Source: a virus
Strand: one strand, 5' to 3'
Length of the DNA stretch: 20,788 nt
Virus record (IMG/VR): IMGVR_UViG_3300034101_003439
Location: 1 to 20,788 of that record
Numbering within the stretch: position 1 is the first letter of the stretch; the number at the start of each line of letters is the position of its first letter. The notes beneath the pieces were generated by a model. That model was given only the letters and a program-made list of their open reading frames with translations. It was not told where the DNA came from and ran no database searches. Shown here piece after piece: positions 1 to 13,990 of the stretch. The translations under genes and the position numbers were made by a program.

Positions 1-311
1 GCGTGTTTTTTAGATTTAAATGATTCTTTAGATAATGTATCTTTTATATCTTGAGCTGTTTTAAATTTTATACTAACTGTATCACTAGGATTTTCATCAG
101 TGTATAATCTTCTTCCTGATCCTTTTGGTTTTTTTCCTGTACCTGTTTTAGGGTCTGCTTCAATTATATTTTGTTCTAAATATCCTTTTTTAATAGCAAC
201 TTTAGGATCATTAGTAAAAGTATCAGAGGCTTTATATCTTGTTTTTCCTACCATATTAGCTTTATATGGGGGGTATATCATTTCATTTAATATGTCAGAT
301 AGTTTTATCAT
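1..311 (-). CDS. Conserved phage protein of unknown function, 3' end cut by window
   Basis: An open frame starts with ATG at 311 and runs off the left edge; 103 residues are visible with no stop. The start overlaps the stop of the upstream gene as ATGA, which supports both the start and translational coupling. The N-terminus (MIKLSDILNEM) is a short amphipathic segment ending in L-N-E, like the starts of several neighbours and like T4 capsid-targeting sequences. The middle is basic (G-K-K-P-K-G-S-G-R-R). The visible C-terminal part (N-P-S-D-T-V-S-I-K-F-K, then Lys/Ser-rich) looks familiar from uncultured T4-like phages, but I cannot name a family. Function is unknown; an internal virion protein is an inference from the N-terminus and position. 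Confidence 0.8.
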   Translation of the reverse strand, partial: MIKLSDILNEMIYPPYKANMVGKTRYKASDTFTNDPKVAIKKGYLEQNIIEADPKTGTGKKPKGSGRRLYTDENPSDTVSIKFKTAQDIKDTLSKESFKSKKH

Positions 312-679
312 TTTGTTTTTCCCCAAGTTTTACCTTTACCTTTTCTTTTACATCCTGCAGGAGTAGGTCTACAAGCGGGGTATTTAGAGCGATTTTCACC
401 TTTTTTTCTACCACATGCTTTATATCCTCCTTTTCCATCAGGAGCATTACAATCTACCCATCCCTTTTCTTTACCTTTAGGACCTGAACGATTAAACCAT
501 TTATGAAGTGATTCATCTTCTTGTAGAAGTTGTTCAAAAACTTCTTTTATACCTTTCCAAATATCTCCTTTACGACATCTAACTACAGCGCCTGATTTAT
601 AAGCTGATGGTTTATCGAATTTACGATCTGCTATACGCAAACATCTATCGCGTTTTTCTTTCTCATTTAAATTTTCCAT
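308..679 (-). CDS. Small Cys/Lys-rich protein, DUF5872-like
   Basis: This is a 123-residue protein counted from ATG at 679. That start shares one base with the upstream stop (TAATG). A TTG two codons earlier (685) is possible but less likely. Two conserved pieces are visible. Residues about 13-43 (C-L-R-I-A-D-R-K, then P-S-A-Y-K-S-G-A-V-V-R-C-R-K-G) match a cysteine-bounded motif common in phage and large-virus proteins. Residues about 58-110 (L-H-K-W-F, W-V-D-C, A-C-G-R, Y-P-A-C-R-P) match the DUF5872 pattern as I remember it. Cysteines at 13, 35, 77, 89, 103 and 110 could bind metal. The tail is very basic. Biochemical function is unknown. A nucleic-acid-binding or internal virion role would fit the charge and neighbours but is inference. 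Confidence 0.85.
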   Translation of the reverse strand: MENLNEKEKRDRCLRIADRKFDKPSAYKSGAVVRCRKGDIWKGIKEVFEQLLQEDESLHKWFNRSGPKGKEKGWVDCNAPDGKGGYKACGRKKGENRSKYPACRPTPAGCKRKGKGKTWGKTK

Positions 680-1335
680 TACCAATATCCGCTAAAATTT
701 GACCCACCACCTAATGATTTCCAATAACGACCTATATTACAAGACCAATATCCAGGAGTAGTTCTATCCTTTTTCTTATCACAATTTTGACGAGCAGCAA
801 ATGCTCTTCTTGCTTTAGGGTCTCTAATTTTAACTGCTAAGTTTTGTCCTCCACCTGCTGCTCCAAAAGATACTTTTTTAACTTTTTTAGTTTTAGGATC
901 TTTTACATAAACATAGAATTTTTTAGATCCACCACGTTTTGGTTTATTTAATGGAGGATGTTTTTTCTTTGTATCAGCTTCATTTAATTGTTCTTCTTCA
1001 ACAAATGGTACATCTAAAGGTACAAATTGATCTTCATATAAACCATAATTTCCAATATCAGTATTTTCAACTAACCATCTGTCTTCAGGATTTAGATATA
1101 ATTTTTCTTCATTATAAAGTTTTCTAACTTCCTTAAACAATTGAAGTTGAGCCTCAGTACCATACCTAAAAGCATTCTCATGTAGTGGAATGTTTTTATC
1201 TAAATGATATTGTAAGTTTTTAGAGACTTTATCTTCAACTAATAAAACATTTTCTTGAAGTGGTTTTAACTTACTTTCTTGTAATATTAGTTCTAGAGTT
1301 TCTTTAATTAAAAATTTTATATCAGATTTATTCAT
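679..1335 (-). CDS. Conserved phage protein with basic C-terminal domain and possible protease-processing sites
   Basis: A 218-residue protein with two parts. Residues 1-120 are helical and acidic and begin with the amphipathic segment MNKSDIKFLIKETLELILQE, which contains L-Q-E-S at 18-21. Residues about 125-218 form a basic domain with the signature P-K-R-G-G, K-F-Y-V-Y-V-K-D-P, D-P-K-A-R-R-A-F-A-A-R, N-C-D and Y-W-S-C (Cys185, Cys199). I recognise this domain from many T4-like and cyanophage proteins but know no proven function for it. The linker carries L-N-E-A at 117-120, which fits the [LI]-x-E|[AGS] pattern cut by T4-type prohead proteases. Cleavage there would free the basic domain. 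The start at 1335 lies 1 nt after the stop of the 35-residue gene, without a Shine-Dalgarno motif. Confidence 0.85.
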   Translation of the reverse strand: MNKSDIKFLIKETLELILQESKLKPLQENVLLVEDKVSKNLQYHLDKNIPLHENAFRYGTEAQLQLFKEVRKLYNEEKLYLNPEDRWLVENTDIGNYGLYEDQFVPLDVPFVEEEQLNEADTKKKHPPLNKPKRGGSKKFYVYVKDPKTKKVKKVSFGAAGGGQNLAVKIRDPKARRAFAARQNCDKKKDRTTPGYWSCNIGRYWKSLGGGSNFSGYW

Positions 1336-1336
1336 A

Positions 1337-1444
1337 TTATTTGAATTTAGCTAAAACTTCTTCATTATGTTTAAGAAGAGCTTGTCTTTTAACTTGGTTA
1401 CCTTTATTAGGTTTTGGTTTACCTACTTTTTTTGATTTAGACAT
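1337..1444 (-). CDS. Very small basic protein, 35 residues, hypothetical
   Basis: A complete open frame runs from ATG at 1444 to TAA at 1337-1339, filling the otherwise empty space between the 543-residue and 218-residue genes. The start overlaps the end of the upstream gene by 8 nt (ATGTCTAA), the same kind of coupling used by its neighbours. The product begins MSKSKKVGKPKPNKGNQVKR and ends in a helical stretch (A-L-L-K-H-N-E-E-V-L-A-K-F-K). The Lys/Arg excess suggests nucleic-acid or capsid-interior binding, but that is only inference. Gene tiling is the main support, so it is likely real but unproven. Confidence 0.6.
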   Translation of the reverse strand: MSKSKKVGKPKPNKGNQVKRQALLKHNEEVLAKFK

Positions 1445-3068
1445 TTGGTTCAGTATCTGAAGGTAATAAAGCATCATAGTCATCCATTGATAGGATATCT
1501 TGTTGTTTGTTTAATGAAACAGCATTTTCAGCTACATCATGTAAATCAACATCAGCAGAAGCATCTTCTTTAGCATATTCTAACATACGAATAAATAAAG
1601 GAACATCCATTGTGATAGTATCAACTGCATCTTCTTCTTCAACTTCACTAAGTTTTTCTCTAGCCCAGTCGGCTGCTTTATTAATTTTACTAGCTACTTT
1701 GTTTTTTAACTCATTATAAACTGCGTTTAAAGCTTCATCTTGTTTAACATCATCTTCAATATCTAAAGCAGCTTGAAAAGCTAATAAAATATCATCCATT
1801 GAAGTTTCACCTTCTTTTAATTGTTTAGTTGCAATAGCAAAAGCTTCTCCTTTATCCATTTTAGGATTTGCCTTTTTTATTTTTTCAGCAGTTTTATTTC
1901 TTTTTTTAAGTTTAGCAGGAGTTAATTTTTTCTCCAAAAGAACTTCTTTAATTATAGAAGTTAATTGTTCTTTTAATTGATCTTTCATTGGAAGGTTATT
2001 TTCGTAAAGTTTATTGGATTGTTGGAATTTTAAGTATCTATTAATTAAATCTTTTTTCTCAGCAGGTGTTATATTATTAACTGATATTTTATTATCTGTA
2101 ATATCTGCAGCAGGGAAATCTGATAGTATAGTAGCATAGAATAAATCTGCACTATCTTCATCAGATGCTCCTTCATCATCTGTAAAAGTTTTAATAAAAT
2201 TAGTAGTTTCAGATGAAGGTTCTTTAATAGGAGCAGATGTAGTAGTGCTAGTTTCTTCTCCAGTATCTGAAAATACTTGTTTAGAAAGAGTATTTAATTT
2301 TTCTCCAGCGTCCTTAGCAATTCTTTTAAGTAAGTCTCTATAAGCATCAGTGTTACTCATGTTAACATCTGCTAATGGATTGTCTTTTACTAAGAAAATA
2401 AATTCAGACTTACCATCTTTATCTTCAATAGTATACTCGTAATCTTTTCTTAAAGGAGATCTATCAAGTTCTTTTTGAGTAAAAGCAGGATAAAAATAAC
2501 CTTTTCTAAATATAGGATAACCAATATTATTACCTCCACCTACTTTAGTAAAAATAGGACTACTAGCTTCTAAGTTAGCGATATACTCTTTTATTTTAGT
2601 ATCATCAGATAAATCAGCTTCCTTATCAAATTTTAAAATGATAGTTTTTAAAGCTTCTCCAATGTCCTTACCTTCAGCTTTATATGCTTTAAATACTTGA
2701 TCAAGTTTAGATAAACGTTCTTGTTTATTTAATTTATCCCAAACATTAGTTAAAGACCATTTAACAATATTATTACGACCAGCTGCATTACCTGAAGGTA
2801 TAAGTTTCATAGCTTTAGATTCTCCTCCAGCTGATCTTTTAATATTTTGAGCTATGGTAACAGCTTGTCTTTGTTTATCACCATAATTGTCTAAATTATT
2901 AATAGCCTTTTCTAGTTTAGCAGGATTATCAGTTGGGATACTATAGCCAATAGTAATATCTTTTAAGGATACATCTCCAGTAGGATTCTCTTCAGGATTT
3001 TCATCCTCAAGTTCCTCCTTGATTAGTTTATAAAGATGGTTTTTTAAAAGTTCGATATTATTCGTCAT
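1437..3068 (-). CDS. Multidomain phage protein with two capsid-targeting-like helices
   Basis: A 543-residue acidic/basic mosaic, no signal peptide or membrane segment. Residues 1-22 (MTNNIELLKNHLYKLIKEEL) are an amphipathic helix. Residues about 40-265 form a globular region with a G-G-G-N-N-I-G-Y-P turn. Residues about 268-305 are a Ser/Thr/Glu/Asp-rich linker. Residues 306-356 form a conserved block (A-D-L-F-Y-A-T-I-L-S-D-F-P, N-R-Y-L-K-F-Q-Q). Residues 361-381 repeat the N-terminal theme (MKDQLKEQLTSIIKEVLLEK). Residues 386-419 hold a basic motif common in phage proteins (A-N-P-K-M-D-K-G-E-A-F-A-I-A-T-K-Q). Residues 484-536 match a small phage domain (P-L-F-I-R-M-L-E-Y-A-K-E-D, D-L-H-D-V) that I recall mostly from separate small proteins. 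It looks like a fusion of several modules. The start overlaps the upstream gene by 11 nt. Function unknown; scaffold or internal head protein is inference. Confidence 0.88.
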   Translation of the reverse strand: MTNNIELLKNHLYKLIKEELEDENPEENPTGDVSLKDITIGYSIPTDNPAKLEKAINNLDNYGDKQRQAVTIAQNIKRSAGGESKAMKLIPSGNAAGRNNIVKWSLTNVWDKLNKQERLSKLDQVFKAYKAEGKDIGEALKTIILKFDKEADLSDDTKIKEYIANLEASSPIFTKVGGGNNIGYPIFRKGYFYPAFTQKELDRSPLRKDYEYTIEDKDGKSEFIFLVKDNPLADVNMSNTDAYRDLLKRIAKDAGEKLNTLSKQVFSDTGEETSTTTSAPIKEPSSETTNFIKTFTDDEGASDEDSADLFYATILSDFPAADITDNKISVNNITPAEKKDLINRYLKFQQSNKLYENNLPMKDQLKEQLTSIIKEVLLEKKLTPAKLKKRNKTAEKIKKANPKMDKGEAFAIATKQLKEGETSMDDILLAFQAALDIEDDVKQDEALNAVYNELKNKVASKINKAADWAREKLSEVEEEDAVDTITMDVPLFIRMLEYAKEDASADVDLHDVAENAVSLNKQQDILSMDDYDALLPSDTEPNV

Positions 3069-3657
3069 CTTTTTTTTCTTTCTTTTCTTTTTTAGGAGCT
3101 GATTTTTCTAATGCTGCTTTTAATTTTTCTAAAACTTGTTCAGCTTTTTCTAATTTAGCAGTATAGTTTGATAATTCACCTCTCATTTCAGGATTATCAA
3201 TTAGTTTAGCCATTTCAGCTTTTAAATCTGCTACTTGTTTTTCTAAACCACCTACTTTAACTTGACCTTTTTTAATATTTTCTTTCATTAAAGTTTCTCG
3301 CTCTTTAACAGCAAATTTAGCTGCTTTCATAGCGGTAGCTTCATTTAGGTAAGCACCTTTATATCCCTCACCAATTAAATCTAGTAAAAGTTTTTTCTCA
3401 ACTAAATCTTTTTCAGTAGATTCATTCATAGCTTCTTTAACTAAATAAACATATTTGTCTTTAGTTACTTTGTCTTCAAACATTGTACCTGGAGCACTTG
3501 TACCTAATACTTCTTTTGTTTGAGTTGGTAATGGATTTTTCATCATATCCAAAGTCATATCTGTAGAATCTTTAGGTACGCTAGGATCAGTATTTAATTC
3601 AGATAAATAATCAGTTATGCTTTCTTTAATTATGTTTTTTAAAGTTTGATTTTTCAT
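3058..3657 (-). CDS. Helical, charged phage protein, possible internal or scaffold-like protein
   Basis: A 199-residue protein. It starts with an amphipathic helix (MKNQTLKNIIKESITDYLSE) holding I-K-E-S, then a Pro/Thr-rich linker (about 22-60) and a helical block with Y-V-Y-L-V-K-E-A-M-N-E (about 69-79). Residues about 134-185 form a heptad-like coiled coil (V-G-G-L-E-K-Q-V-A-D-L-K-A-E-M), and the tail is Lys/Glu-rich. The composition recalls T4 head-core and internal proteins, but no family can be assigned with certainty. It follows a 23-nt gap that contains a perfect 16-bp A/T palindrome (3671-3686), a candidate promoter, and it overlaps the 543-residue gene by 11 nt, so the two are probably co-translated. 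Confidence 0.85.
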   Translation of the reverse strand: MKNQTLKNIIKESITDYLSELNTDPSVPKDSTDMTLDMMKNPLPTQTKEVLGTSAPGTMFEDKVTKDKYVYLVKEAMNESTEKDLVEKKLLLDLIGEGYKGAYLNEATAMKAAKFAVKERETLMKENIKKGQVKVGGLEKQVADLKAEMAKLIDNPEMRGELSNYTAKLEKAEQVLEKLKAALEKSAPKKEKKEKKDDE

Positions 3658-3670
3658 GAGTTTAGTTTTG

Positions 3671-3686
3671 ATATAAATATTTATAT
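3671..3686 (-). promoter_or_regulatory. A/T palindrome, candidate phage promoter element
   Basis: The gap between the zinc-ribbon gene and the coiled-coil gene holds ATATAAATATTTATAT, a perfect 16-bp palindrome. It includes TATAAATA (the T4 late promoter -10 sequence) in both directions. The minus-strand TATAAATA copy ends about 20 nt before the ATG at 3657, a fitting distance. Similar elements lie in three other gaps. The site overlaps the last codons of the upstream gene. Confidence 0.4.
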
Positions 3687-4250
3687 TTCTAAGTTTCTTA
3701 ATCGTTTTATGTTATTTTTGATCATTTTTATAACTTCAGGATCAACACTACCACCATCCCATTTTTCTATATCACCTGCTTCAGTAACATATGTTTCATT
3801 TTTAGAATTAAAGTATTCATCAAACATTTGTTCAGCATCATCTATTGTAGCGTTTTTATTAGCATTTAGCATTTTTCTTTCATATGCTTCATACTCACCT
3901 GTTATTCTTAATTTACCTTCCATTTCAATAACACAATCAAAACATTTTTGATGTATGTTATACATTTTTCTATTTAAATGAAAATCTTTCATTGGTTTAG
4001 AACAACATGGACAAGTAAGTGGAAATTCAACCATTGCCTTTAAAGCATCGTGCTTGGTGACAGTTTGTTTAATACCGTTGTGAATAGTCCAAGTTTTACC
4101 GTTTTCTTCCCATATATCACCTTCAGTATGTTTAACTTGTTCTTTAGTATAACCGGATTGAATTCTAGTTGCATTTGCAGTTTGACCTGAAATAATATTA
4201 CGCATTCTTTGAATGTCTCTTTCTTGGAATTCTCTATTTAATTGTGACAT
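3681..4250 (-). CDS. Conserved zinc-ribbon phage protein of unknown function
   Basis: A 189-residue protein starting MSQLNREFQERDIQRMRNII. Residues about 41-66 form a conserved block (H-T-E-G-D-I-W-E-E-N-G-K-T-W-T-I, then N-G-I-K-Q-T-V-T-K). A probable zinc ribbon follows: C-P-C-C at 80-83 pairs with C-F-D-C at 103-106. The C-terminus has acidic helices. I recognise this layout from T4-like marine phage genomes, where it is annotated as a conserved hypothetical, and I know no demonstrated activity. The start lies 3 nt after the stop of the nucleotidase gene, implying one transcript. Unlike several neighbours, its N-terminus lacks the short hydrophobic helix with [LI]-x-E. Confidence 0.85.
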   Translation of the reverse strand: MSQLNREFQERDIQRMRNIISGQTANATRIQSGYTKEQVKHTEGDIWEENGKTWTIHNGIKQTVTKHDALKAMVEFPLTCPCCSKPMKDFHLNRKMYNIHQKCFDCVIEMEGKLRITGEYEAYERKMLNANKNATIDDAEQMFDEYFNSKNETYVTEAGDIEKWDGGSVDPEVIKMIKNNIKRLRNLEI

Positions 4251-4253
4251 AAC

Positions 4254-4805
4254 TTATATTCCTAATTGTTTTAAATCGTTTATTACTTGTTCAGCATTTT
4301 TATATAAAATTCCAATACCATTTTTATGTTTCCAATCCATAATGGTATCTTCTCTATCATCTATAAGAATTTTATTTGGACTTGATAAATCTGCTTTTTT
4401 ATCAGCTTGTTTAAAGATTATAGGTATTTTGATTTTTTCAGTATCTAGATGATCCTCAACCCATAATTGTTTTCCTTCTCTGCTTGAGTTATGCCATGAA
4501 GGAGCAGTAAGTAAAGTAGGTTTGTAAGGTTTAATATAATCCCACAATTCTCTACCTCCAGGCATCCAAGGCATTCCTCTCCAAAATCTTAAACCTACTT
4601 GATGATCTATTATATCCCAAAATTTTTCATCTACTTTTTTATCCCCATATTCTTTTTGAGCTTTTTTTCTATATTGATCAGGACTTAGACCAGTAAAATG
4701 TTCAAAGCGACCTTCAAAGTCGCAAAGAACCCCATCCATATCACAGTAGATTTGATAATTTATTTTAGGTTTTTCTTCTTCAAAAAGATTACTCAATGAT
4801 ATCAT
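4254..4805 (-). CDS. 5'(3')-deoxyribonucleotidase, HAD superfamily (NT5C-like)
   Basis: A 183-residue HAD-family phosphatase. Motif I is Y-C-D-M-D-G-V-L-C-D-F, with nucleophile Asp22 and acid/base Asp24. Motif II is L-L-T-A-P-S (Thr100). A Lys-rich segment near 133-138 is the likely motif III. Motif IV is I-L-I-D-D-R-E-D (Asp149, Asp150). Size and motifs fit the NT5C family, cytosolic enzymes that remove phosphate from (d)NMPs. In phages these probably help balance or salvage nucleotides. The preceding residues MISLSNLFEEEK are an unusual extension resembling the cleaved leader of T4 Alt, so packaging in the head is possible. The start directly abuts the upstream stop (TAAATG). Confidence 0.85.
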   Translation of the reverse strand: MISLSNLFEEEKPKINYQIYCDMDGVLCDFEGRFEHFTGLSPDQYRKKAQKEYGDKKVDEKFWDIIDHQVGLRFWRGMPWMPGGRELWDYIKPYKPTLLTAPSWHNSSREGKQLWVEDHLDTEKIKIPIIFKQADKKADLSSPNKILIDDREDTIMDWKHKNGIGILYKNAEQVINDLKQLGI

Positions 4806-5813
4806 TTATTCAAATATTTCAGGATTTTGACGTCCAAATTCTCTCATTAACACTCCTGCAACAGAGTGAGCTTCATTTTCAATAGGTGAACCATCTTCAC
4901 CTGCTCCATCATACATTCTTCCTTGAAGATTTTGCTGATGATGAACTAATTCATGAGCTAATGTTCTTAAAATATCTGCCATGTTTCTATTATGAACCAC
5001 TACTTTAATACGTTGAGAATCATTTCCATATAAACCAAAACTATGATTAGTAGAGGCATATTTTGGGGAGTTAATTATTACTATTTTAGGTTCATCTATA
5101 TTTAATCTACTACAAGCATAGTCAACAAATTTTTTCATTAATGGAGCTTTTTGAGGAGTAAATCCTTCATGTAGTATTGGGCCACCTCTGTATTCAAAAG
5201 ACCCATCATCTTCATCTAATTCTTCGTCTCTATAAGGTTCTAGAGTAGGTAAAATATTATTTCTATAATCTTCCATAGTAATTTCTTTCTCTTTATAATA
5301 AAGTTTAATTAATGAAGGATCATAATTTTGCAATTTTTCAGCCTCTTGTAAATAAGCTTCATTATCCTCTATCACATCTAACATTATATGAATTTCTTTA
5401 ATATAATTTTTAGCGTTAGGGATTTCTTTTTTAAGACCTAATATGATTCTTTCTTCAGATTCGTCTGAACCTTCAGATTTAGGTTCATCATCATAGTATC
5501 TAAAAGGAACAGATCGATATTTACTAGATAATTTATCACCATCTAAAACAATACGAGCAGTCATTCCTCCTACACCATAAGATCCTCTTTTATAAAATAA
5601 TTTATTACGAGTAGTTGAAAAAAAGTATAAATGAGTTATACCTTTTTCTATAAAGTATTTTTCATCTTTTTTAAAAAATTGAAAATCTCTTTCATAATTC
5701 CATGTACCTATTTCAGAACCTCTAAAAGAATTAGATTCTAATATAGGTTTTATAGAAGTTATTTTGGTAAAATGGTATACTGTACCTAATTGTTTTCTTT
5801 CAGAAATAAACAT
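4806..5813 (-). CDS. Fusion of ADP-ribosyltransferase-like domain and zinc metalloprotease
   Basis: A 335-residue, two-part protein. Residues about 10-150 resemble ADP-ribosyltransferase-like or toxin-like folds seen in phages: Y-H-F-T at 13-16, F-F-S-T-T-R-N at 64-70, I-V-L-D-G-D-K-L at 88-95, and E-S-E-E-R-I-I at 119-124. His14, the S-T-T motif and a Glu near 119-122 could form an active site, but this assignment is tentative. Residues about 215-335 form a zinc metallopeptidase domain with L-A-H-E-L-V-H-H: HExxH with His287, Glu288 and His291. A downstream E-N-E-A-H-S-V-A-G (312-320) offers Glu314 as a third ligand. A Glu/Asp-rich linker joins the parts. The metallopeptidase type is frequent in T4-like phage genomes. 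No signal peptide. The gene follows a 29-nt gap with an A/T element and abuts the nucleotidase gene. Confidence 0.8.
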   Translation of the reverse strand: MFISERKQLGTVYHFTKITSIKPILESNSFRGSEIGTWNYERDFQFFKKDEKYFIEKGITHLYFFSTTRNKLFYKRGSYGVGGMTARIVLDGDKLSSKYRSVPFRYYDDEPKSEGSDESEERIILGLKKEIPNAKNYIKEIHIMLDVIEDNEAYLQEAEKLQNYDPSLIKLYYKEKEITMEDYRNNILPTLEPYRDEELDEDDGSFEYRGGPILHEGFTPQKAPLMKKFVDYACSRLNIDEPKIVIINSPKYASTNHSFGLYGNDSQRIKVVVHNRNMADILRTLAHELVHHQQNLQGRMYDGAGEDGSPIENEAHSVAGVLMREFGRQNPEIFE

Positions 5814-5833: not shown

Positions 5834-5846
5834 TATAAATATTTAT
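5834..5846 (-). promoter_or_regulatory. A/T element ahead of the ART-like/protease gene
   Basis: The 29-nt gap between the PD-(D/E)XK nuclease and the fusion gene contains ATAAATATTTAT, a perfect 12-bp palindrome, with TATAAATA on the plus strand (TATTTATA read in the transcribed direction). The element ends about 20 nt before the ATG at 5813. It matches the elements near 3671, 8368 and 14011. Confidence 0.35.
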
Positions 5847-6601
5847 TCCCCTCTTTTGATTACAGTTTTTAATTCTTCAATACTAGGTTTAGGATTAGGA
5901 TTTTCTAAATCAAATAATTTTTTAACACATCTAAAAATTTCTAAATCTTCATCTTGTGTTCTATCAGATTCAACAATTTCCCAACCTTTACCTTGCATTT
6001 TCTTACCAGATTTATCAATACCACGTTTAGATGATTTTAACCATAATATCCCTCTTCTATCTACTTTTTTTCCAAAACCTTCTTCATAGCATTTACTATA
6101 AATAGCAGTTTGTAAATCATAAGTGGTTTGTAAATGGTTTGATGTTTTTAAATCTAAAACCCATAATTCATCTTCTATTTCAACTACTAAATCACAAGTA
6201 CCTGCTACTTTTTCTTCATCTGAAAATAAGTGTACTTCTGTTTCAATTAATTTAGGTTTATAGGTTTCCCAAAATTCAACAAATTTTATAAACATTTTCC
6301 ATACTTCAGGTATGTATTTAGGTTTATGATATTGATCTAAAAAAGTACATTCTTTACCATTTAAATAATCCTCACATAGATTGTGAGTTTGAGTTCCTTC
6401 TTCAGCAGCTTTTTTAACAATGTATTCAGATGAGTATCCTACTTTTTTTAACCAATCCTCAAAATGTTTACCTTTAGGATATGAAGATAATACATGGGTA
6501 ATTGATGGATAATATTCACCATTTCTTTGATAAAATCTAGAATCTGGTAGAGTAATTTGTTGGTGATCGTCTGAAATTTTTAAAATTCTTTCGTAGCTCA
6601 T
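5843..6601 (-). CDS. PD-(D/E)XK nuclease, RecB/Cas4-like exonuclease family
   Basis: A 252-residue protein with the ordered motifs of RecB-family nucleases. An early G-T-Q-T-H-N-L-C-E at 69-77 (His73, Glu77) corresponds to the usual G-x-x-x-H motif. The catalytic core is G-T-C-D-L-V-V at 134-140 (Asp137) and V-L-D-L-K-T-S at 148-154 (Asp150, Lys152). The Q-T-A-I-Y at 164-168 is the helical Q-xxx-Y motif. All expected catalytic residues are present, so it is probably an active metal-dependent DNA nuclease used in replication, recombination or host DNA breakdown. It sits 3 nt downstream of the primase gene, in line with DNA metabolism. There are no cysteines placed for the Cas4 iron-sulfur cluster, so a plain phage exonuclease is preferred over Cas4. 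Confidence 0.85.
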   Translation of the reverse strand: MSYERILKISDDHQQITLPDSRFYQRNGEYYPSITHVLSSYPKGKHFEDWLKKVGYSSEYIVKKAAEEGTQTHNLCEDYLNGKECTFLDQYHKPKYIPEVWKMFIKFVEFWETYKPKLIETEVHLFSDEEKVAGTCDLVVEIEDELWVLDLKTSNHLQTTYDLQTAIYSKCYEEGFGKKVDRRGILWLKSSKRGIDKSGKKMQGKGWEIVESDRTQDEDLEIFRCVKKLFDLENPNPKPSIEELKTVIKRGE

Positions 6602-6604
6602 AGT

Positions 6605-7537
6605 TTAAAGGGATAATTTAAGTGAAAAAAGATCAGAAAAAGTAAATTCTTGTGAAGTTTGAATTAAATGAGTAAAGTGTTCAAATCCCATATCACTTGG
6701 GTCTTTACCGTCTAATTGAATAACATGTAATTTTTTTCCTGAATTGAGTAGTTCCTCAGCTATTTTAGTGGTGCTTTTTAAAGCATCATTATCTAAAGCT
6801 AAGTAAATATCTTTTATATTATTTGTTAATAATTTTTTAGTTAATTGTTTTGATAAGGTTTTACCATATAAGGGTATAGCATTTCTTTTAATAGCAATGG
6901 CGTCAAATGCACCTTCACAAAGTATAACAGGTAAATCCCAATTTATTAAATTTTCAAATCCAATTATTGAGTTTTTATCAGCCGATACAGCATCAAATTT
7001 TTTAGCAGGATCCTTTTCAAAAGAACGAGCTATAAAATAATTTAATTTACCTCTAGAATCATAATTAGGTATAATAATTTTATTAGCATACCTTCCTGTT
7101 TCACAATATCCAATTTGATATTTAAGTATGTCTACAGGTGTTATACCGCGTTTTTTAACGTAAGACAACGCGTGTCTAGCGATAATATCTGTTTTTGATA
7201 TATTATATAGAGGTTTATATTCCTTCGGTAATTCAACGTTAAGGTTAAAATCTGATTGGTCTATTTTAGTTGTAGTACCTAATATAGAATTTAGTTCAGA
7301 GTATTTGTTTCCTTCTACTTTTACAGCCTTAAATAAAGAAGATATAGTTTTACCTTTAGCATCACACGCCCAACAATGCCAGGGATTTTCATTTTTAGAA
7401 GTAGGGACTAGATTTATTTCTAATTTGGGTTTTCTATGATTACATAGAGGGCAGTGAAAGGCATAGTTACCTTTAGAAGTAGCATTGCCTTTACCTAGTA
7501 CAGATTGTACTAGACCTAATAATATTCCATTTACCAT
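6605..7537 (-). CDS. DNA primase, zinc ribbon plus TOPRIM (T4 gp61-like)
   Basis: A 310-residue primase. The N-terminal zinc ribbon uses C-P-L-C at 29-32 and C-W-A-C at 55-58, with the typical W-H-C-W-A-C-D-A-K-G context. Residues about 120-175 form the catalytic N-lobe (R-G-I-T, I-I-I-P-N-Y-D, Y-F-I-A-R-S). The TOPRIM fold has V-I-L-C-E-G-A-F-D-A (Glu208), L-A-L-D-N-D (Asp249, Asp251) and D-G-K-D-P-S-D (276-282). No helicase domain follows, so this is a stand-alone primase like T4 gp61 (about 340 residues), making RNA primers at the replication fork with a separate helicase encoded elsewhere. The start at 7537 has a weak AAGG upstream, one of few Shine-Dalgarno-like sites here. It lies 14 nt after the 50-residue gene and 3 nt before the nuclease gene. 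Confidence 0.9.
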   Translation of the reverse strand: MVNGILLGLVQSVLGKGNATSKGNYAFHCPLCNHRKPKLEINLVPTSKNENPWHCWACDAKGKTISSLFKAVKVEGNKYSELNSILGTTTKIDQSDFNLNVELPKEYKPLYNISKTDIIARHALSYVKKRGITPVDILKYQIGYCETGRYANKIIIPNYDSRGKLNYFIARSFEKDPAKKFDAVSADKNSIIGFENLINWDLPVILCEGAFDAIAIKRNAIPLYGKTLSKQLTKKLLTNNIKDIYLALDNDALKSTTKIAEELLNSGKKLHVIQLDGKDPSDMGFEHFTHLIQTSQEFTFSDLFSLKLSL

Positions 7538-7551
7538 AACCTTGTTTTTAT

Positions 7552-7704
7552 TTAGGATTCTCTTACATCAAATAATCCATTAAATAAATTTAACATTAAT
7601 CTTTTTTGAGAAGCGAAAAATAATATAGCTCCTTCTAAAGATGCTGATTTAATTGAATTAATAGCTTCGTCTGAATTTTTGTGATACAAGCTGTAACGTT
7701 TCAT
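7552..7704 (-). CDS. Small phage protein, 50 residues, hypothetical
   Basis: A complete open frame from ATG at 7704 to TAA at 7552-7554 fills the space between the homing endonuclease and primase genes. The product starts MKRYSLYHKNSDEAINSIKS and continues with an amphipathic helix (A-S-L-E-G-A-I-L-F-F-A-S-Q-K) and a closing L-F-D-V-R-E-S. The pattern of a beta-like start, an A-I-x-F-F-A-x-x-K helix and a final F-x-V strand resembles small proteins common in T4-like phages, though I cannot name the family. Spacing (14 nt to the primase) and a TATAAT-like sequence just upstream support it. Function unknown. Confidence 0.65.
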   Translation of the reverse strand: MKRYSLYHKNSDEAINSIKSASLEGAILFFASQKRLMLNLFNGLFDVRES

Positions 7705-7734
7705 GATGAGAGGATTTTATTATAATATATGAAA

Positions 7735-8361
7735 TTATTTTATGATATCAAAGTCTTTTGCATAAGAAAAAGTAAATCCTTTTAATGTGGGGTAAGAATA
7801 TTTACCCTTGACAAAACTACAAATTAATCCTTTACTAATATTCATTTTCTCACTACATTCTTTTATACTATTATACACGATTTGAGTTTCATGGCATAAT
7901 ATGGATTTAGTTCCTTTTCCTATTTTATTTTGAGATATTTTTTTACTTATTTCTTTACCTTTATTTTCCCACACATTTAACATCATATTTCTTAATTGTT
8001 GTTTATGTTCTGGGGTTCTTTCATATCTAAAACTAGAAATTTCTTTCATTAATTTGCTATGTTCTGGTCTGGTTTTCCCAGTCCATGAAGGTTTAGATGC
8101 TAATTTAATATTAAGACCATTAATATGACTATTAAATTTTAATATATAAAATTCTTCTTTATCATTTAATGAATCAATATCACATTCTTCTATTATTTCA
8201 AACATATGATTTTCATATTGATATTTTTTTAAAGAATTATATAATTTAAGAGATTGATTGCATTGCAATCTTTGATATTCTCTCCACCTTCTTTCTATAT
8301 TAATACTTTGTCCAATGTAAATTTTCCCTTTTGGGTTTGTAATTTTGTATATTCCTATCAT
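7735..8361 (-). CDS. GIY-YIG homing endonuclease, free-standing, with NUMOD motifs
   Basis: A 208-residue protein. The catalytic GIY-YIG domain occupies residues 1-90: G-I-Y at 3-5, Y-I-G at 15-17, an Arg around 24-25, and the metal-binding Glu in K-E-E-F-Y-I (Glu69). The DNA-binding part has two NUMOD3-like motifs (G-K-T-R-P-E-H-S-K-L at 95-104 and R-T-P-E-H-K-Q-Q-L at 115-123). A NUMOD1/IENR1-like helix-turn-helix follows at about 158-198 (V-Y-N-S-I-K-E-C, G-L-I-C-S-F-V-K-G-K). This is the layout of Seg-like and intron-type homing enzymes: they cut a related phage genome lacking the gene so that repair copies it in. All active-site residues seem intact. It lies between the small GIY-YIG-like gene and the 50-residue gene, flanked by gaps of 49 and 30 nt, as expected for an inserted mobile gene. 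No intron is evident. Confidence 0.9.
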   Translation of the reverse strand: MIGIYKITNPKGKIYIGQSINIERRWREYQRLQCNQSLKLYNSLKKYQYENHMFEIIEECDIDSLNDKEEFYILKFNSHINGLNIKLASKPSWTGKTRPEHSKLMKEISSFRYERTPEHKQQLRNMMLNVWENKGKEISKKISQNKIGKGTKSILCHETQIVYNSIKECSEKMNISKGLICSFVKGKYSYPTLKGFTFSYAKDFDIIK

Positions 8362-8410: not shown

Positions 8411-8863
8411 TTAAATAAAATCCTTCCTAAAATAACGTCCTTCTATATTATCATTAAAATAATTACTTCCAGATTCTAATACCTCATTTACAAACAAATA
8501 TTTTGTTTCATAGTAAGTTAATAATTTTTTTGTGGGAACAAAACAAAGTATTTCACGTTTGAAATCTTCTTTATTACCGTCTTTTATTAACTGCTTTATT
8601 TCTGATTGTGAACCATAATAAGTTTTCCAATCAGATTCTTTTATTACTTGTTTTTTCTTACTTAATCTCTTATCAGTAATTAAAGCTAATTCTTTTTTAC
8701 CTAATGCTTTATTAGTAACTGACATTAATTGTTTTTTACCTAAGTATTTTTTATCTGTAGGTAAATGTGTTACTTCATAAATAAACCCGAAAGTATTTTC
8801 GGGCATATCTGATATTTCTGTTATTACTTTACCTTTATAAATCCAAGTTGGAGTTGTAACCAT
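8411..8863 (-). CDS. GIY-YIG-like putative nuclease with internal tandem repeat
   Basis: A 150-residue protein. G-F-I-Y-E-V-T at 26-32 and K-Y-L-G-K-K at 39-44 occupy the places of GIY and YIG. E-S-D-W-K-T-Y-Y-G-S at 76-85, F-K-R-E-I-L at 101-106 and Y-Y-E-T-K-Y-L-F at 117-124 complete a pattern I know from small GIY-YIG-like phage proteins annotated as endonucleases. Glu119 may be the metal ligand. The Tyr-to-Phe change in GFIY and the Leu in YLG are deviations, so activity is uncertain. Residues 40-78 contain three imperfect 13-residue units rich in Lys placed between the YLG motif and E-S-D-W, lengthening the usual loop. The gene starts 14 nt after the 101-residue structural gene and sits next to a second GIY-YIG gene. 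Confidence 0.7.
   Translation of the reverse strand: MVTTPTWIYKGKVITEISDMPENTFGFIYEVTHLPTDKKYLGKKQLMSVTNKALGKKELALITDKRLSKKKQVIKESDWKTYYGSQSEIKQLIKDGNKEDFKREILCFVPTKKLLTYYETKYLFVNEVLESGSNYFNDNIEGRYFRKDFI
8630..8746 (-). repeat. Three imperfect 39-bp tandem repeats inside the GIY-YIG-like gene
   Basis: Three consecutive 39-bp units lie at 8708-8746, 8669-8707 and 8630-8668, encoding residues 40-52, 53-65 and 66-78. Their protein units are YLGKKQLMSVTNK, ALGKKELALITDK and RLSKKKQVIKESD. By hand alignment the first two units share 28 of 39 bases, including an uninterrupted 12-base run. The third is more degenerate. All keep the reading frame. Confidence 0.7.
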
Positions 8864-8877
8864 AGTTATATTTTATT

Positions 8878-9183
8878 TTAAATATCGTATTTAACTACAA
8901 AAACTGTATCTGTTGTTGAAGAAAGAGGAATTGGTTGTGCTAATTTAGCTACAGCTAATAATTCATTTCTATTATTATATAATCCTACTGTTGTGACATA
9001 AGGAGCAAAGAATGAACTTGTAGCAAAGTTTCTTAATGAACCTGAATTATCTGTTGATATTGTAGGGTTTAAAGACATGTTAAAATCGTTTTCTCCGACT
9101 TTACAACGAACTTCCTGTTCATAAACGATATATTCGTTTTTGAAATTTAAAGTAGCATTTGGATCTTGTACTATAGCTGCCAT
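8878..9183 (-). CDS. Small structural protein, stand-alone copy of a shared C-terminal module
   Basis: A 101-residue protein. From residue 32 onward it aligns with the last 69 residues of the 350-residue protein at 12267-13319. Both have N-D-F-N, N-P, T-T-V-G-L-Y-N, N-E-L-L-A-V-A-K-L, P-x-P and a final V-K-x-D. The first 31 residues have no counterpart there. The module is common in virion proteins of uncultured T4-like phages, usually at the end of large structural proteins, and probably forms a beta domain for assembly or attachment; no activity is known to me. The start shares one base with the stop of the 1,026-residue gene (TAATG), so translation is coupled. A virion role is inferred from homology and neighbours. 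Confidence 0.8.
   Translation of the reverse strand: MAAIVQDPNATLNFKNEYIVYEQEVRCKVGENDFNMSLNPTISTDNSGSLRNFATSSFFAPYVTTVGLYNNRNELLAVAKLAQPIPLSSTTDTVFVVKYDI
8881..9090 (-). repeat. Duplicated structural module, copy 1
   Basis: This stretch encodes residues 32-101 of the small structural protein and matches 12270-12476 at protein level and partly at DNA level. Around 8941-8998 and 12330-12387 the two copies share long identical runs such as TTTAGCTACAGCTAATAA. Confidence 0.7.
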
Positions 9184-12100
9184 TATGCGAAATTATTAAT
9201 AGTTAATTTTATAGTTGCAGCAGGTGTATAACTTGTTCTATCTATATAAACACTTACATCTGTACTTATTTCATCACCATTAGAAGCAAATTGTACATTT
9301 TGAGCTGGAGTGTAAGGGCTAATTAAAGAATATGGATAGTTTCCTGAGTTTATTTGTGGGATAACTGATGTAATTACATTACCAATAAGGATATTACTAC
9401 CAGATACTGTCATACTATATACATAATATCCATTTTGGTCTATAAAGCCAGCATAATTATTACTTCCCAATATACTAAAATCTAGATTAAATTCTAATGG
9501 GTCAGATACAGTAAAAGTATTAGTAGCATTATTTACTACTGTAATACCTGAACCATTATTTAAAAAATATTCAACGCTTTGACCTGATAAATTTTTGAAT
9601 TGTATAGTAAGTGGTTCAAATTCAGGAACTGGGTCTATAATTAGGCATGAAGCAGATATTATATTACTGTAGGAAGAAGTAGCCCCATTACTACAACTAT
9701 TAAAAGCTCTAAAATATACTGGTTGGGCTCTATAATCATATGAATTAGCAAAAGGCTGGTTGAGAGATGATGTAAGTCCACCAAACGTTCTTACAACTAT
9801 TTCACCTCCTGGAGGGGAATCAGGTAGGGTAAATTTTCTATATCCTATAGGCCCATTAAAATCTGGGTATAGACTGTATTCAATAGACATAGAAGAGGCA
9901 GAATTTGAAGCTGAGTTGAAATATATATTATATTGATATCTAAAACTAGCATCGTCGCATCCAAGTAATGTTACATCTGTTATTATAGGAGGAACACAAG
10001 CTGTTGGAGGAGTACATTGAGCAATATCTAGATAATATCTATAATATACATTAGTATTACATTTAATTATAACATCATTTGTTCCTGAGATAAATAATTC
10101 TGTAAAGTTTATAGTAGGACCAAATAGAGTAGTTCCGTTAGAATAACTAGAAGTTACTACTGAACCTGAGTAGATTCCTGAATTAAAAATTTGTCGTATT
10201 CCTGAACTTGAAACATATCCTGTATTAATTCCTGAAGAAGTTACACAAAATGAACCAGTATAAACATAATTTCTTTCAAATATTTCTATACTTGAAGTAG
10301 GAGAAGAACAACCATTACTATCTATTAAGAAAGTTGTATAGGTTCCAGAACTTAGCCCATTTAAACTTATAGAACTTGAATCTGAAGAATACGTTAATCC
10401 TGATCCTGTATTAAAAGCAAAATAAGTATAAGGAGGAGTTCCTCCACTTCCATTTATAATAATTGCATTAGAACATGAATCTATATAAGAAGCTGTAGTA
10501 GTTAAAGTTAGAGCTGTAGGTGAAGTTAAAGTAAAAGTATTACTATAAGATTGACATTGATTTATACCAGAGGCTGTTACATTTAAATTATAACTTCCAG
10601 TAACTAAACCAGAAGCAGTTACAGTATTATTTGGGAATGAACTTAGACTAACATTAGTATAGATATTACTTCCAGTAGCATCTAACAGATTAACTATTAA
10701 ATTATCAATTACATTTGTAAATGCTACAGTTATAGACCCATTAGACCCACCATAACAAGGTATATTAGATTGAGTTACACTAGCAGTTAAAGCAGAATAA
10801 ACTCCTAAATTTACTATAGAACTTGTAATACAATTAAATGAATTTTTAACTGCTATAGTATGTGAACCTGTTGATAATCCTGTAAATTGTTTAGGTAAAG
10901 GAAAATATGAACCACTATCTATAGAAGCAGAAACAGAGGTTCCAGTCCCATCATCGGATATTGTTATTATACCATCATTGCTAATACTAGAACATGGTAA
11001 TTTAATTATACTAGTTGTATATGATATACCAGGATACCAAGAATTAAATGATTGGGATATTGTAGTTCCTAAATAATCTTTAACATAAATAACATTACTA
11101 TTAGAAGAAGTTATACTACCACTAACAGTTTTATTAAAAAATCCAGGTATTCCTGTATATGTAGTTTCATTATTTAAAGAATAACTATAAGGAGGTACCC
11201 CATAATTGATAGAAAATGTTACAGGTACACTTGCAGTTGAATTAAAACAAACTGATGAACTTATTAGGTTATTAATTTCTAAAGATAAAGCAGTTATTGT
11301 TAAATCAATTGAGCTAGTATTACTTCTTACTCCATTAAAATTTCCAATAGTATACTCTAATTTATAATTACCAGGTATTACACTAGTTTGATCAGGTGTT
11401 ATAGTTATAATACCATTATTTATAGTATAATTAGGAAAACTAAATCCTGGTACAGACATTAATTGTACTGATGTAGGATCTAAATTACCACAATCAGCAA
11501 AATCATTTGTTAATATTTGTAGTGATTGAGAAAGATATTCTGTATTTTGGTATAAATAATAATCATTAGCTGTAGTTGGAGGAGCTCCAAATATACATAA
11601 ATAATCTTGATCTGTAAGTACTATTAATCCTTGAGAATAAAATACATTACCTATATATAAAGAAGAAGTAGCTAAAGTATCTAATAAATTACCTTCACCA
11701 TCATCTTGGATATTATAAGTTGAACCTGATATTACTACAGATTTAGGAGATAATCCTGAACCGAAAATATTTTGATCAATTGATATTACAACTATTTTAC
11801 TTCCTATATCAGGATCAAATCCAGTTTCATCATATAAACTTGATGATATATTATATAGAGTGTTATTAAAAAGAGTAGGATTAGTACCAATAGCAGAACT
11901 ACCTGTTAAAGTAGGTATATTTCTATTTGCAGCTAGCATTGACCCTGAAGTCAAAGTAGATTGCTCATAGTTAAAAAATGATGATGAATGGAAAAATCGT
12001 CCTGTAAGTGATCCTGAGGTGTAGTTTTGGTAATAAAGATTTTTTATAGAATCATAAACTAATCTTCTATATTCTTCGTTTGCTGTTTGTGAGTCATTTA

Positions 12101-12263
12101 TAGGATCAAAAGGATTAGTTCTATCAATAGGTAAATTCTCACCTATATAAATTGTAACTCCATTTTGAGATAAAGTAGTATTATTAACCCCCCATTGTTT
12201 ATTAGCAATATAGGAGGTTAATGATATATCATTTGAATTTAATGTTTTGTATGAAAAACTCAT
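9183..12263 (-). CDS. Large virion protein with SprB-like repeats, probable tail or adhesin component
   Basis: A 1,026-residue protein rich in Ser, Thr, Asn, Tyr and Gly. Residues 1-220 resemble the start of the 350-residue protein: M-S-F and L-N opening, an I-V-V-I-S-I-D strand, L-S-P-K-S-V-V-I-S-G-S, and V-F-Y-S-Q-G-L-I-V-L. Residues about 326-662 hold roughly four beta-sandwich units like SprB repeats of Bacteroidota adhesins: I-P-C-Y-G-G-S-N-G-S-I-T-V, G-T-P-P-Y-T-Y, G-L-S-S-G-T-Y-T, D-S-N-G-C. Residues about 757-872 look like another Ig/fibronectin-like unit, and 885-1026 a further beta domain. Paired cysteines recur. No signal peptide, as expected for a protein assembled into virions inside the cell. 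Position among tail-type genes suggests a tail fibre or decorating adhesin that contacts the host. It starts 3 nt after the 350-residue gene. Confidence 0.8.
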   Translation of the reverse strand: MSFSYKTLNSNDISLTSYIANKQWGVNNTTLSQNGVTIYIGENLPIDRTNPFDPINDSQTANEEYRRLVYDSIKNLYYQNYTSGSLTGRFFHSSSFFNYEQSTLTSGSMLAANRNIPTLTGSSAIGTNPTLFNNTLYNISSSLYDETGFDPDIGSKIVVISIDQNIFGSGLSPKSVVISGSTYNIQDDGEGNLLDTLATSSLYIGNVFYSQGLIVLTDQDYLCIFGAPPTTANDYYLYQNTEYLSQSLQILTNDFADCGNLDPTSVQLMSVPGFSFPNYTINNGIITITPDQTSVIPGNYKLEYTIGNFNGVRSNTSSIDLTITALSLEINNLISSSVCFNSTASVPVTFSINYGVPPYSYSLNNETTYTGIPGFFNKTVSGSITSSNSNVIYVKDYLGTTISQSFNSWYPGISYTTSIIKLPCSSISNDGIITISDDGTGTSVSASIDSGSYFPLPKQFTGLSTGSHTIAVKNSFNCITSSIVNLGVYSALTASVTQSNIPCYGGSNGSITVAFTNVIDNLIVNLLDATGSNIYTNVSLSSFPNNTVTASGLVTGSYNLNVTASGINQCQSYSNTFTLTSPTALTLTTTASYIDSCSNAIIINGSGGTPPYTYFAFNTGSGLTYSSDSSSISLNGLSSGTYTTFLIDSNGCSSPTSSIEIFERNYVYTGSFCVTSSGINTGYVSSSGIRQIFNSGIYSGSVVTSSYSNGTTLFGPTINFTELFISGTNDVIIKCNTNVYYRYYLDIAQCTPPTACVPPIITDVTLLGCDDASFRYQYNIYFNSASNSASSMSIEYSLYPDFNGPIGYRKFTLPDSPPGGEIVVRTFGGLTSSLNQPFANSYDYRAQPVYFRAFNSCSNGATSSYSNIISASCLIIDPVPEFEPLTIQFKNLSGQSVEYFLNNGSGITVVNNATNTFTVSDPLEFNLDFSILGSNNYAGFIDQNGYYVYSMTVSGSNILIGNVITSVIPQINSGNYPYSLISPYTPAQNVQFASNGDEISTDVSVYIDRTSYTPAATIKLTINNFA
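10278..11288 (-). repeat. SprB-like protein repeats (about four units)
   Basis: Residues about 326-662 of the 1,026-residue protein contain successive units of about 80 residues. The recurring features are a Cys near the unit start, G-x-P-P-Y-x-Y in the first and fourth units, a G-L-S-x-G-S/T-Y/H turn, and a C-terminal N-x-C before a hydrophobic strand. Units 2 and 3 are more divergent and lack the P-P-Y turn. Boundaries are approximate. Confidence 0.6.
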
Positions 12264-13330: not shown

Positions 13331-13990
13331 TTAGCTAGTTACTCTAGTTATTGTTAAAGGTATAGTTAATCTAGCTCCTGAATCTCTACCAGTTATAGTT
13401 AAAATAGTAGATAAAGAAGAATTTGTACCAAATAATGTATTGACAGTTGTAGCTGTTAAGTTAATAGTAGCTCCAATTACAGTTCTTGAAACATTTGTTC
13501 CTATTGTTGTTGTTGAATTTAAAGCTTGAACTTCAGCAGTATTAATACCAACACCATTAAATGTAGATAATAATCTTGAATCACCTATAGTGGCAGTGTA
13601 TCCTGAGGATTCAAATGCTGTAGATGCTCCTAAATAATTTAAAGTTTGAGGAGTAATAGCAAGTGAAGCCCCTTGACGTAATGTTATTGAAGTATAACCT
13701 ACATCTAATACAGGTAATTTAGCAGTACCACGAGGTAAAGTTAAAAGTTTATATTTCATTATTTGAGTCTCATCAGGAAAAGCTTCAATTATAGGCATAG
13801 CTTCAATAGCTTCACCATAAAAAGCTGATCCAGATGGATGGTTTGGATTATAAAGAGTATAGTCAATTTCATCATCAGATAATGAAAATTGAGTAATTCT
13901 AAATGAACCGTCATTTTTAGCTAAAAGTTCTCTGCCTTTTTTAGTTAAAATAGCATCTACGGTTACTGATGTGTTATTTAAAAATCCCAT
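13331..13990 (-). CDS. Conserved phage structural protein
   Basis: A 219-residue protein with a strongly conserved-looking first 90 residues: M-G-F-L-N-N-T-S-V-T-V-D-A-I-L-T-K-K-G-R-E-L-L-A, F-x-I-T-Q-F-S-L-S-D-D-E-I-D-Y and Y-N-P-N-H-P-x-G. I recall this N-terminal domain from many uncultured T4-like phage genomes next to tail-type genes. The L-T-K-K-G-R-E-x-L-A part also resembles the opening of other baseplate-associated phage proteins. Residues about 95-219 are Thr/Ser-rich and beta-like, ending in I-T-G-R-D-S-G-A-R-L, which suggests an Ig-like domain. No enzyme motif is seen. It follows a 47-nt gap with an A/T element and has no Shine-Dalgarno motif. Exact virion location is unknown. Confidence 0.8.
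   Translation of the reverse strand: MGFLNNTSVTVDAILTKKGRELLAKNDGSFRITQFSLSDDEIDYTLYNPNHPSGSAFYGEAIEAMPIIEAFPDETQIMKYKLLTLPRGTAKLPVLDVGYTSITLRQGASLAITPQTLNYLGASTAFESSGYTATIGDSRLLSTFNGVGINTAEVQALNSTTTIGTNVSRTVIGATINLTATTVNTLFGTNSSLSTILTITGRDSGARLTIPLTITRVTS

Follow-up and report, generated by a model that had tools for sequence, protein, structure and literature searches.

Recurrent T4-type leaders on unrelated proteins point to modular head cargo in Immutovirus-like phages

Introduction

What do neighbouring phage proteins share when nothing but a short N-terminal peptide seems to be common to them? The question is raised by a fragment of 20,788 bases from IMG/VR (record IMGVR_UViG_3300034101_003439, here called the window; the DNA record consists of just these 20.8 kb). 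At one end of it lies a block of eight open reading frames (ORFs), five of which start in an amphipathic helix whose last residues are [LI]xE, while none of the remaining 11 ORFs of the window does so (hypergeometric p ~0.005); all genes concerned are on the minus strand. A first-pass annotation had listed these five N-termini, each of which is indeed present (starting at positions 311, 1335, 3068, 3657 and 4805, minus strand), and had proposed that the block may encode proteins loaded into the phage head and injected with the DNA, enzymes included. We consider it highly probable that these proteins are head cargo carrying capsid-targeting propeptides of the T4 type, greatly expanded and modular. 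Loading into the head is strongly supported by features that can be read directly from the sequences: the leaders, their putative cleavage sites, an S77 prohead protease, the genomic position, the enrichment of the motif in the cassette and head module, the leaders on capsid proteins and proteases, and the swapping of leaders at LxE.

In bacteriophage T4, a leader targets proteins into the prohead core, and the protease gp21 cuts after L/I-x-E (PMC9026906); this leader is able to bring virtually any protein into the head (PMC7697877). The T4 internal proteins (IPs) Ip1-3 have the leader alone in common, reach the host by injection and act as inhibitors of different type IV restriction enzymes; T4 has three IPs and Alt, and at least 10 IPs have been reported across the T-even phages (PMC12373910).

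The leader-bearing block

The window is part of the genome of a Flavobacterium myophage of the Immutovirus-like kind; the tail protein encoded at 13331-13990 shares 76.5% identity with the counterpart in the cultured Flavobacterium phage immuto, and the primase of its nearest relative (record G001, 173 kb) is 94% identical to that of the window. Kinship with immuto would place the hosts among the Bacteroidota. The block and its boundaries are as follows, with "tagged" denoting a protein that bears a leader, and with leader classes A to D as described below.

3-311, minus: tagged ORF truncated by the left window edge; leader MIKLSDILNE (bases 282-311), body with DPKTGTGKKPKGSGRRLYTDENP
308-679, minus: DUF5872 protein (Pfam PF19197, 6e-8) with a reduced leader, the bare site MENLNE
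679-1335, minus: tagged protein with class A leader MNKSDIKFLIKETLELILQE (bases 1276-1335); phrog_7595 (3e-12), a family of unknown function
1437-3068, minus: polyprotein-like tagged ORF of 543 residues with leader MTNNIELLKNHLYKLIKEEL (bases 3009-3068)
1935-1991, minus: leader-like internal stretch MKDQLKEQLTSIIKEVLLE of the 543-residue ORF, a candidate internal cleavage region with the motif E at residues 374 and 378
3058-3657, minus: Lys-rich, coiled-coil-like tagged protein with class A leader MKNQTLKNIIKESITDYLSE (bases 3598-3657)
3681-4250, minus: Cys-containing conserved protein without a leader, 92% identical in G001
4254-4805, minus: 5'(3')-deoxyribonucleotidase (NT5C; phrog_2643, 2e-26) with class D leader MISLSNLFEE (bases 4776-4805; the next residue is E)
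4806-5813, minus: putative DarT/Tpt1-like ADP-ribosyltransferase (ART) domain joined to a zincin metallopeptidase (HELVHH), with the bare start MFISE
5843-6601, minus: exonuclease without a leader, bounding the cassette together with the primase
6605-7537, minus: primase without a leader, bounding the cassette together with the exonuclease

Few leaders on many bodies

Genome-scale motif counts were made on 11 related genomes with 2196 proteins; our own ORF calls agreed with the annotated immuto starts for 205 of the 219 common genes. The bare motif [LI]xE was rejected as a test, being so common that many stretches of 28 residues match it by chance, and the motif scored was a stricter one, [hydrophobic][LI]xE within residues 3-30. 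This was found in 410 proteins, whereas internal windows predict 283 and shuffled sequences 254, and its distribution is uneven: 104 of 217 cassette proteins (48%) and 49 of the 94 proteins of the terminase-to-capsid head module (52%) carry it, against 257 of 1885 others (14%; cassette versus other proteins, Fisher p=3e-29). Windows of 28 residues inside the cassette proteins themselves contain the motif in 10.7% of cases. The possibility, raised in the first-pass annotation, that the motif is equally common at non-virion N-termini is not borne out by these regional frequencies.

At least four recurring leader classes can be told apart, grouped by eye first and then by pattern, a grouping of our own: class A, MKKSELRQIIKEEL..LxE; class B, MDNFDLKKYLAEGRLLKE or MDNFDLKKFLVENKLTxNSxLLxE; class C, MKKQLNEQFKRMQKLAGIITE, ending in ..RMQKLAGIITE; and class D, MIKLSNLLxE. 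Regular expressions for the leaders matched 157 of the 2196 true N-termini and 66 of 6402 internal Met positions, a seven-fold excess; since loose expressions over-call class D outside the cassette, the regional and internal controls were used. By the conservative regular expressions, that is, the class-specific leader patterns used for per-genome counts, each genome has 7-23 tagged proteins. In an unbiased comparison of 25-residue segments from non-homologous proteins, high-scoring resemblances were commoner at N-termini than at internal or C-terminal positions, an excess that is strong in immuto, G001 and a further genome (G010) and small in two others (G007 and G015); signal peptides and common nucleotide-binding folds aside, the strong N-terminal resemblances are largely these leaders.

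Classes B and C, sampled in about 110 contigs each, are nearly always found at the N-terminus, class B on at least 141 proteins of at least 98 body families and class C on at least 133 proteins of at least 86 body families; queries with both against 50,697 deposited phage records returned immuto as the sole match. The E of the first L-x-E is 96% conserved among the 141 class B leaders, even though the search pattern did not impose it, and x varies. In G010, six consecutive ORFs with unrelated bodies all bear the class B leader. The codons of these six leaders differ at half of the synonymous sites and 9.5% of the non-synonymous ones (pS 0.49, pN 0.095; pN behind the leader 0.68), which indicates that the peptides are under selection and are not recent copies.

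The link to the phage head

On one strand of G001 follow tail proteins, a GIY-YIG protein, primase, exonuclease, the cassette, terminase, portal, prohead protease and a gp23-like capsid protein; immuto has the same arrangement (annotated protease gp070, capsid protein gp066), and the order of exonuclease and primase in the window is that of both relatives. The protease of G001 (42464-43015) belongs to Peptidase_S77 (PF03420, E 3e-31), and PF03420 was found in 12 of the first 17 related records, G001 included. A direct PF03420 search of the window gave no match, as expected for a fragment. The first-pass annotation had reckoned with the lack of a prohead protease as a reason to abandon head loading; every tag-bearing contig of at least 110 kb that was searched, as well as G001, encodes one, and shorter contigs are often without it.

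The capsid proteins and the proteases of these phages bear the same type of leader as the cassette proteins. The capsid proteins, in which a further site, GLLEG, is conserved, begin with MELNQLFEGA, MSNLVNSLLETA or MSLNTLLESA; the proteases begin with sites such as LLIET..LLTE. As a positive control, the T4 proteins gp24 (MAKINELLRE), Alt (MELITELFDE) and gp21 (LIE at residue 9) show the corresponding sites, and the first two of these resemble class D.

Leader swapping and polyprotein junctions

Leaders appear to be exchangeable between cargo proteins. Of 26 families with homologous bodies and dissimilar leaders, 23 have [LIMVF]xE in either member at the point where homology sets in; for classes C and D this count is to some extent predetermined, since some leader expressions contain LxE. 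The clearest swap is that of one body found behind a class B leader (L250, ..RLLKE followed by DLDLSSEVDQYLKDNPF), a class C leader (L328, ..KAKLNE followed by ELDLPSEVDQYLKDNPF) and a class A leader (L420, ..KILTE followed by EIDIASELD).

Short amphipathic extensions likewise precede complete bodies in the orthologs of the window proteins, with domains beginning behind the leader, and the [LI]xE of the gp21 type at their end exceeds both shuffles and internal controls. The phrog_2643 match of the window NT5C begins at residue 15, behind the leader, and 14 of 16 dereplicated NT5C orthologs have an extension with [LI]xE (shuffle mean 6.5). The site lies immediately ahead of the DUF5872 domain in 12 of 12 dereplicated orthologs (shuffle mean 6.5), most of which bear full class A leaders such as MERLKKIIKEVLTE, and it is present in 10 of 10 dereplicated N-extensions of zeta-like kinases (shuffle mean 3.5). 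Orthologs of the 679-1335 protein have divergent class A leaders; among the loci retrieved there are about 25 relatives of the 3058-3657 protein, in which the body diverges and the leader is kept. The locus of the truncated ORF 3-311 is occupied in G001 by an unrelated body behind the leader MIKLNNLLNE; homologues of the window body are found directly behind the leader MIKLIDILFE in L393 and in the interior of the long polyproteins G018_101051 and G020_132768.

The same sites seem to split polyproteins: where a metallopeptidase domain follows varying upstream domains, [LI]xE stands at the boundary in 48 of 51 relatives, with 16 expected. In the window ORF 4806-5813 an internal site (PILHE|GF, residue 216, bases 5166-5168) is found. 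The C-terminal domain of the 543-residue ORF (DVPLFIRMLEYAKEDA) occurs elsewhere alone, with or without a leader, and within other tagged proteins. A protein of 77 residues, MNPKDIITVDVPLFIRLLEYAREDA (L425:4914-5147, L407:3962-4195 and many more), exists on its own without a leader, on its own with one, or as a domain of the same window ORF.

Proposed mechanism and its alternatives

The amphipathic leader would bind the prohead core and the protein would in this way be built into the prohead, where the phage S77 protease would cut after [LI]xE and free the mature body inside the head; the mature cargo would then stay with the DNA in the virion and be ejected into the host together with it. Some cargo would be made as polyproteins with LxE between the domains, and the delivered proteins may counter host defence or start host takeover.

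Several observations weigh against this interpretation, to which the partly built-in junction count should be added. Cleavage is argued from the sites and from T4; our search of the literature for virion proteomics of these phages found none, and a study of Baltic Flavobacterium phages (PMC7077304) mentions neither immuto nor mass spectrometry. The Immutovirus scaffold proteins had no PHROG match, hence no core partner was identified. Within the window, the DUF5872 and ART proteins keep a bare site alone and ORF 3681-4250 is without any; some bodies also occur leaderless, as in the case of the 77-residue protein and two sigma factors, and the loose motif is seen at about 14% of the other N-termini. 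Lastly, most of the 11 genomes encode, next to their baseplate genes, a protein with a conserved class A-like N-terminus (IKEAVKEAIQEELKDILLEAV). This protein (immuto gp114, L002:31525-31944; G001 7237-7725) looks largely disordered; it may be a tail protein, and as such fall outside the rule, or else cargo whose gene lies apart from the cassette.

The baseplate-adjacent protein could also be taken to mean that the leaders serve as helices for docking at some other site of assembly, be it the tail, the baseplate or a membrane or replication compartment, with [LI]xE being no protease site at all. Amphipathic helices could bind many partners, and some tagged genes are far from the head module; we nonetheless hold this to be improbable, since the same leaders are found on capsid proteins and proteases, the junctions of swapped leaders fall at LxE, an S77 protease is encoded in each of the large tagged contigs searched, and LxE recurs at domain boundaries within polyproteins, where a docking helix is unexpected. 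That the similarity arises by chance, N-terminal amphipathic helices with E being common in AT-rich phage proteins, would agree with the frequency of [LI]xE alone and of the loose motif outside the cassette; its probability is practically negligible given the seven-fold excess over internal Met positions, the regional enrichment, the near-identical leaders kept by purifying selection on unrelated bodies, and the swapping of leaders.

A closer relative of our interpretation holds that the tagged proteins are solely scaffold or core components of the prohead, cut up and expelled at maturation and neither kept nor injected. In T4, gp22, gp67 and gp68 are for the most part lost after cleavage (PMC9026906), and several tagged bodies are Lys/Glu-rich and coiled-coil-like, such as that of window ORF 3058-3657. 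Many others, however, have the folded domains of enzymes or regulators (NT5C, zeta-like kinase, superoxide dismutase, sigma-70, HD and ART), the exchange of bodies at a single locus is more in keeping with accessory cargo than with a scaffold that the phage cannot do without, and candidates for capsid assembly, gp067 and gp071, adjoin the immuto protease; a purely scaffolding role is quite improbable in our view. Head cargo, kept and delivered, is the interpretation we prefer.

Comparison with known systems

The resemblance to IPI, IPII, IPIII and Alt of T4 consists in a short N-terminal leader ending in [LI]xE, an S77 protease in the genome and unrelated bodies; unlike T4, the present phages have 7-23 tagged proteins per genome, polyproteins, and at least four leader classes, in some of which the leader is longer, at about 18-25 residues. 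In phiKZ and SPN3US, many head proteins likewise have propeptides whose cleavage falls C-terminal to the glutamate of a short motif, with several sites per propeptide (PMC9026906), but the propeptides of these distantly related phages are not described there as a few interchangeable leaders borne by unrelated bodies. Polyvalent proteins, which are encoded by phages and conjugative elements, are early-phase effectors of several domains, zincin metallopeptidase and ART among them, and are predicted to be packaged and processed (PMC5512222), an architecture that window ORF 4806-5813, with its putative ART-like part, may share; here, by contrast, the proteins are shorter, LxE lies at the domain boundary, where it would be open to cutting by the head protease, and either domain is also found by itself behind a leader. 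Phage immuto itself shares the gene order, the protease gp070 and 18 tagged proteins by the conservative expressions, mostly annotated as hypothetical.

The same few tags on nearly two hundred unrelated proteins of kindred uncultured phages suggest a general loading of chosen enzymes into the head, by which these would enter the bacterium along with the DNA. We think it likely that uncultured T4-like phages of aquatic Bacteroidota use a general protein-packaging code, in which at least four interchangeable address peptides and protease-cut polyproteins bring tens of proteins per phage into the head, among them enzymes that are not known to be head cargo of the T4 type (a sigma-70 factor, a superoxide dismutase, a zeta-like kinase, a deoxynucleotidase and a DarT-like ART). 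If so, a T4 feature with four cargo proteins would become a widespread modular delivery system, and the leaders would serve as a search key by which injected anti-defence and takeover proteins could be found straight from sequence. Hundreds of phage proteins that lack annotation would fall under this key into a single testable class, that of head-borne proteins which enter the host at infection; the T4 proteins of this class proved to be specific factors against restriction. The prediction made by the key can be tested with a cultured phage and host (immuto and Flavobacterium sp. LMO8).

The putative cargo

Most tagged bodies are without a family match. Those that could be assigned include an Fe/Mn superoxide dismutase (L464:7433-8122), an HD-domain protein (L285), zeta-like kinases, NMNAT-like proteins and one sigma-70 factor with a class B leader (L304:8509-9108). 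To our knowledge, no enzyme cargo of these kinds has been reported from T4. The sigma-70 factor, if packaged, would act on transcription at once after injection; it is a single case that we do not take as a rule, as neither of its two relatives in the set carries a tag. Its gene adjoins a second tagged ORF (L304:7889-8497) and a DpdA-like gene.

The best Foldseek match of the N-terminal part of window ORF 4806-5813, which precedes the HELVHH domain, is DarT (7yk3, probability 0.99, E 5e-3), an ART assignment that comes from a model of moderate quality (mean predicted local distance difference test, pLDDT, just 65) and from weak scores. The leader in front of homologous ART-like bodies is of class A in L223, of class C in L414 and of class D in L389, and one tagged copy gave a weak match to Tox-ART-HYD1 (E 6e-4, under the curated cut-off). 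Pfam and PHROG scans of the proteins gave no match to the bodies of T4 IPs or Alt, T4 Alt itself not being compared directly, and no family match for the 3681-4250 protein; PADLOC on the pooled tagged proteins found no convincing match, with weak Cas10 and LeoBC scores only.

Genes annotated as QueC, QueD, QueE, FolE, QueF and DpdA lie in immuto at L001:18607-37015, and several similar ORFs are present in G001; immuto DNA is probably modified with 7-deazaguanine. A role of the cargo against restriction is plausible because immuto has these DNA-modification genes and modified DNA is what the T4 IPs defend; none of the tagged bodies examined here could be connected with restriction.

Neighbouring genes in the window

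Upstream of the primase on the minus strand, a GIY-YIG endonuclease-like ORF (7735-8361; PF01541, 4e-8) adjoins a small ORF (7552-7704). G001 has no copy of it at that place and just a distant relative elsewhere, and it looks like a mobile homing endonuclease. The next protein (8411-8863, minus) is a GIY-YIG protein of the SegE type (PF19835, 1e-29), for which the label of NAD synthetase on the PHROG family and on the immuto homologue looks wrong. Further on, ORF 9183-12263 (minus) encodes a tail-region protein of 1026 residues with many repeats of the kind 'GGTPPYTY..', which recall those of Bacteroidota surface adhesins (SprB-type).

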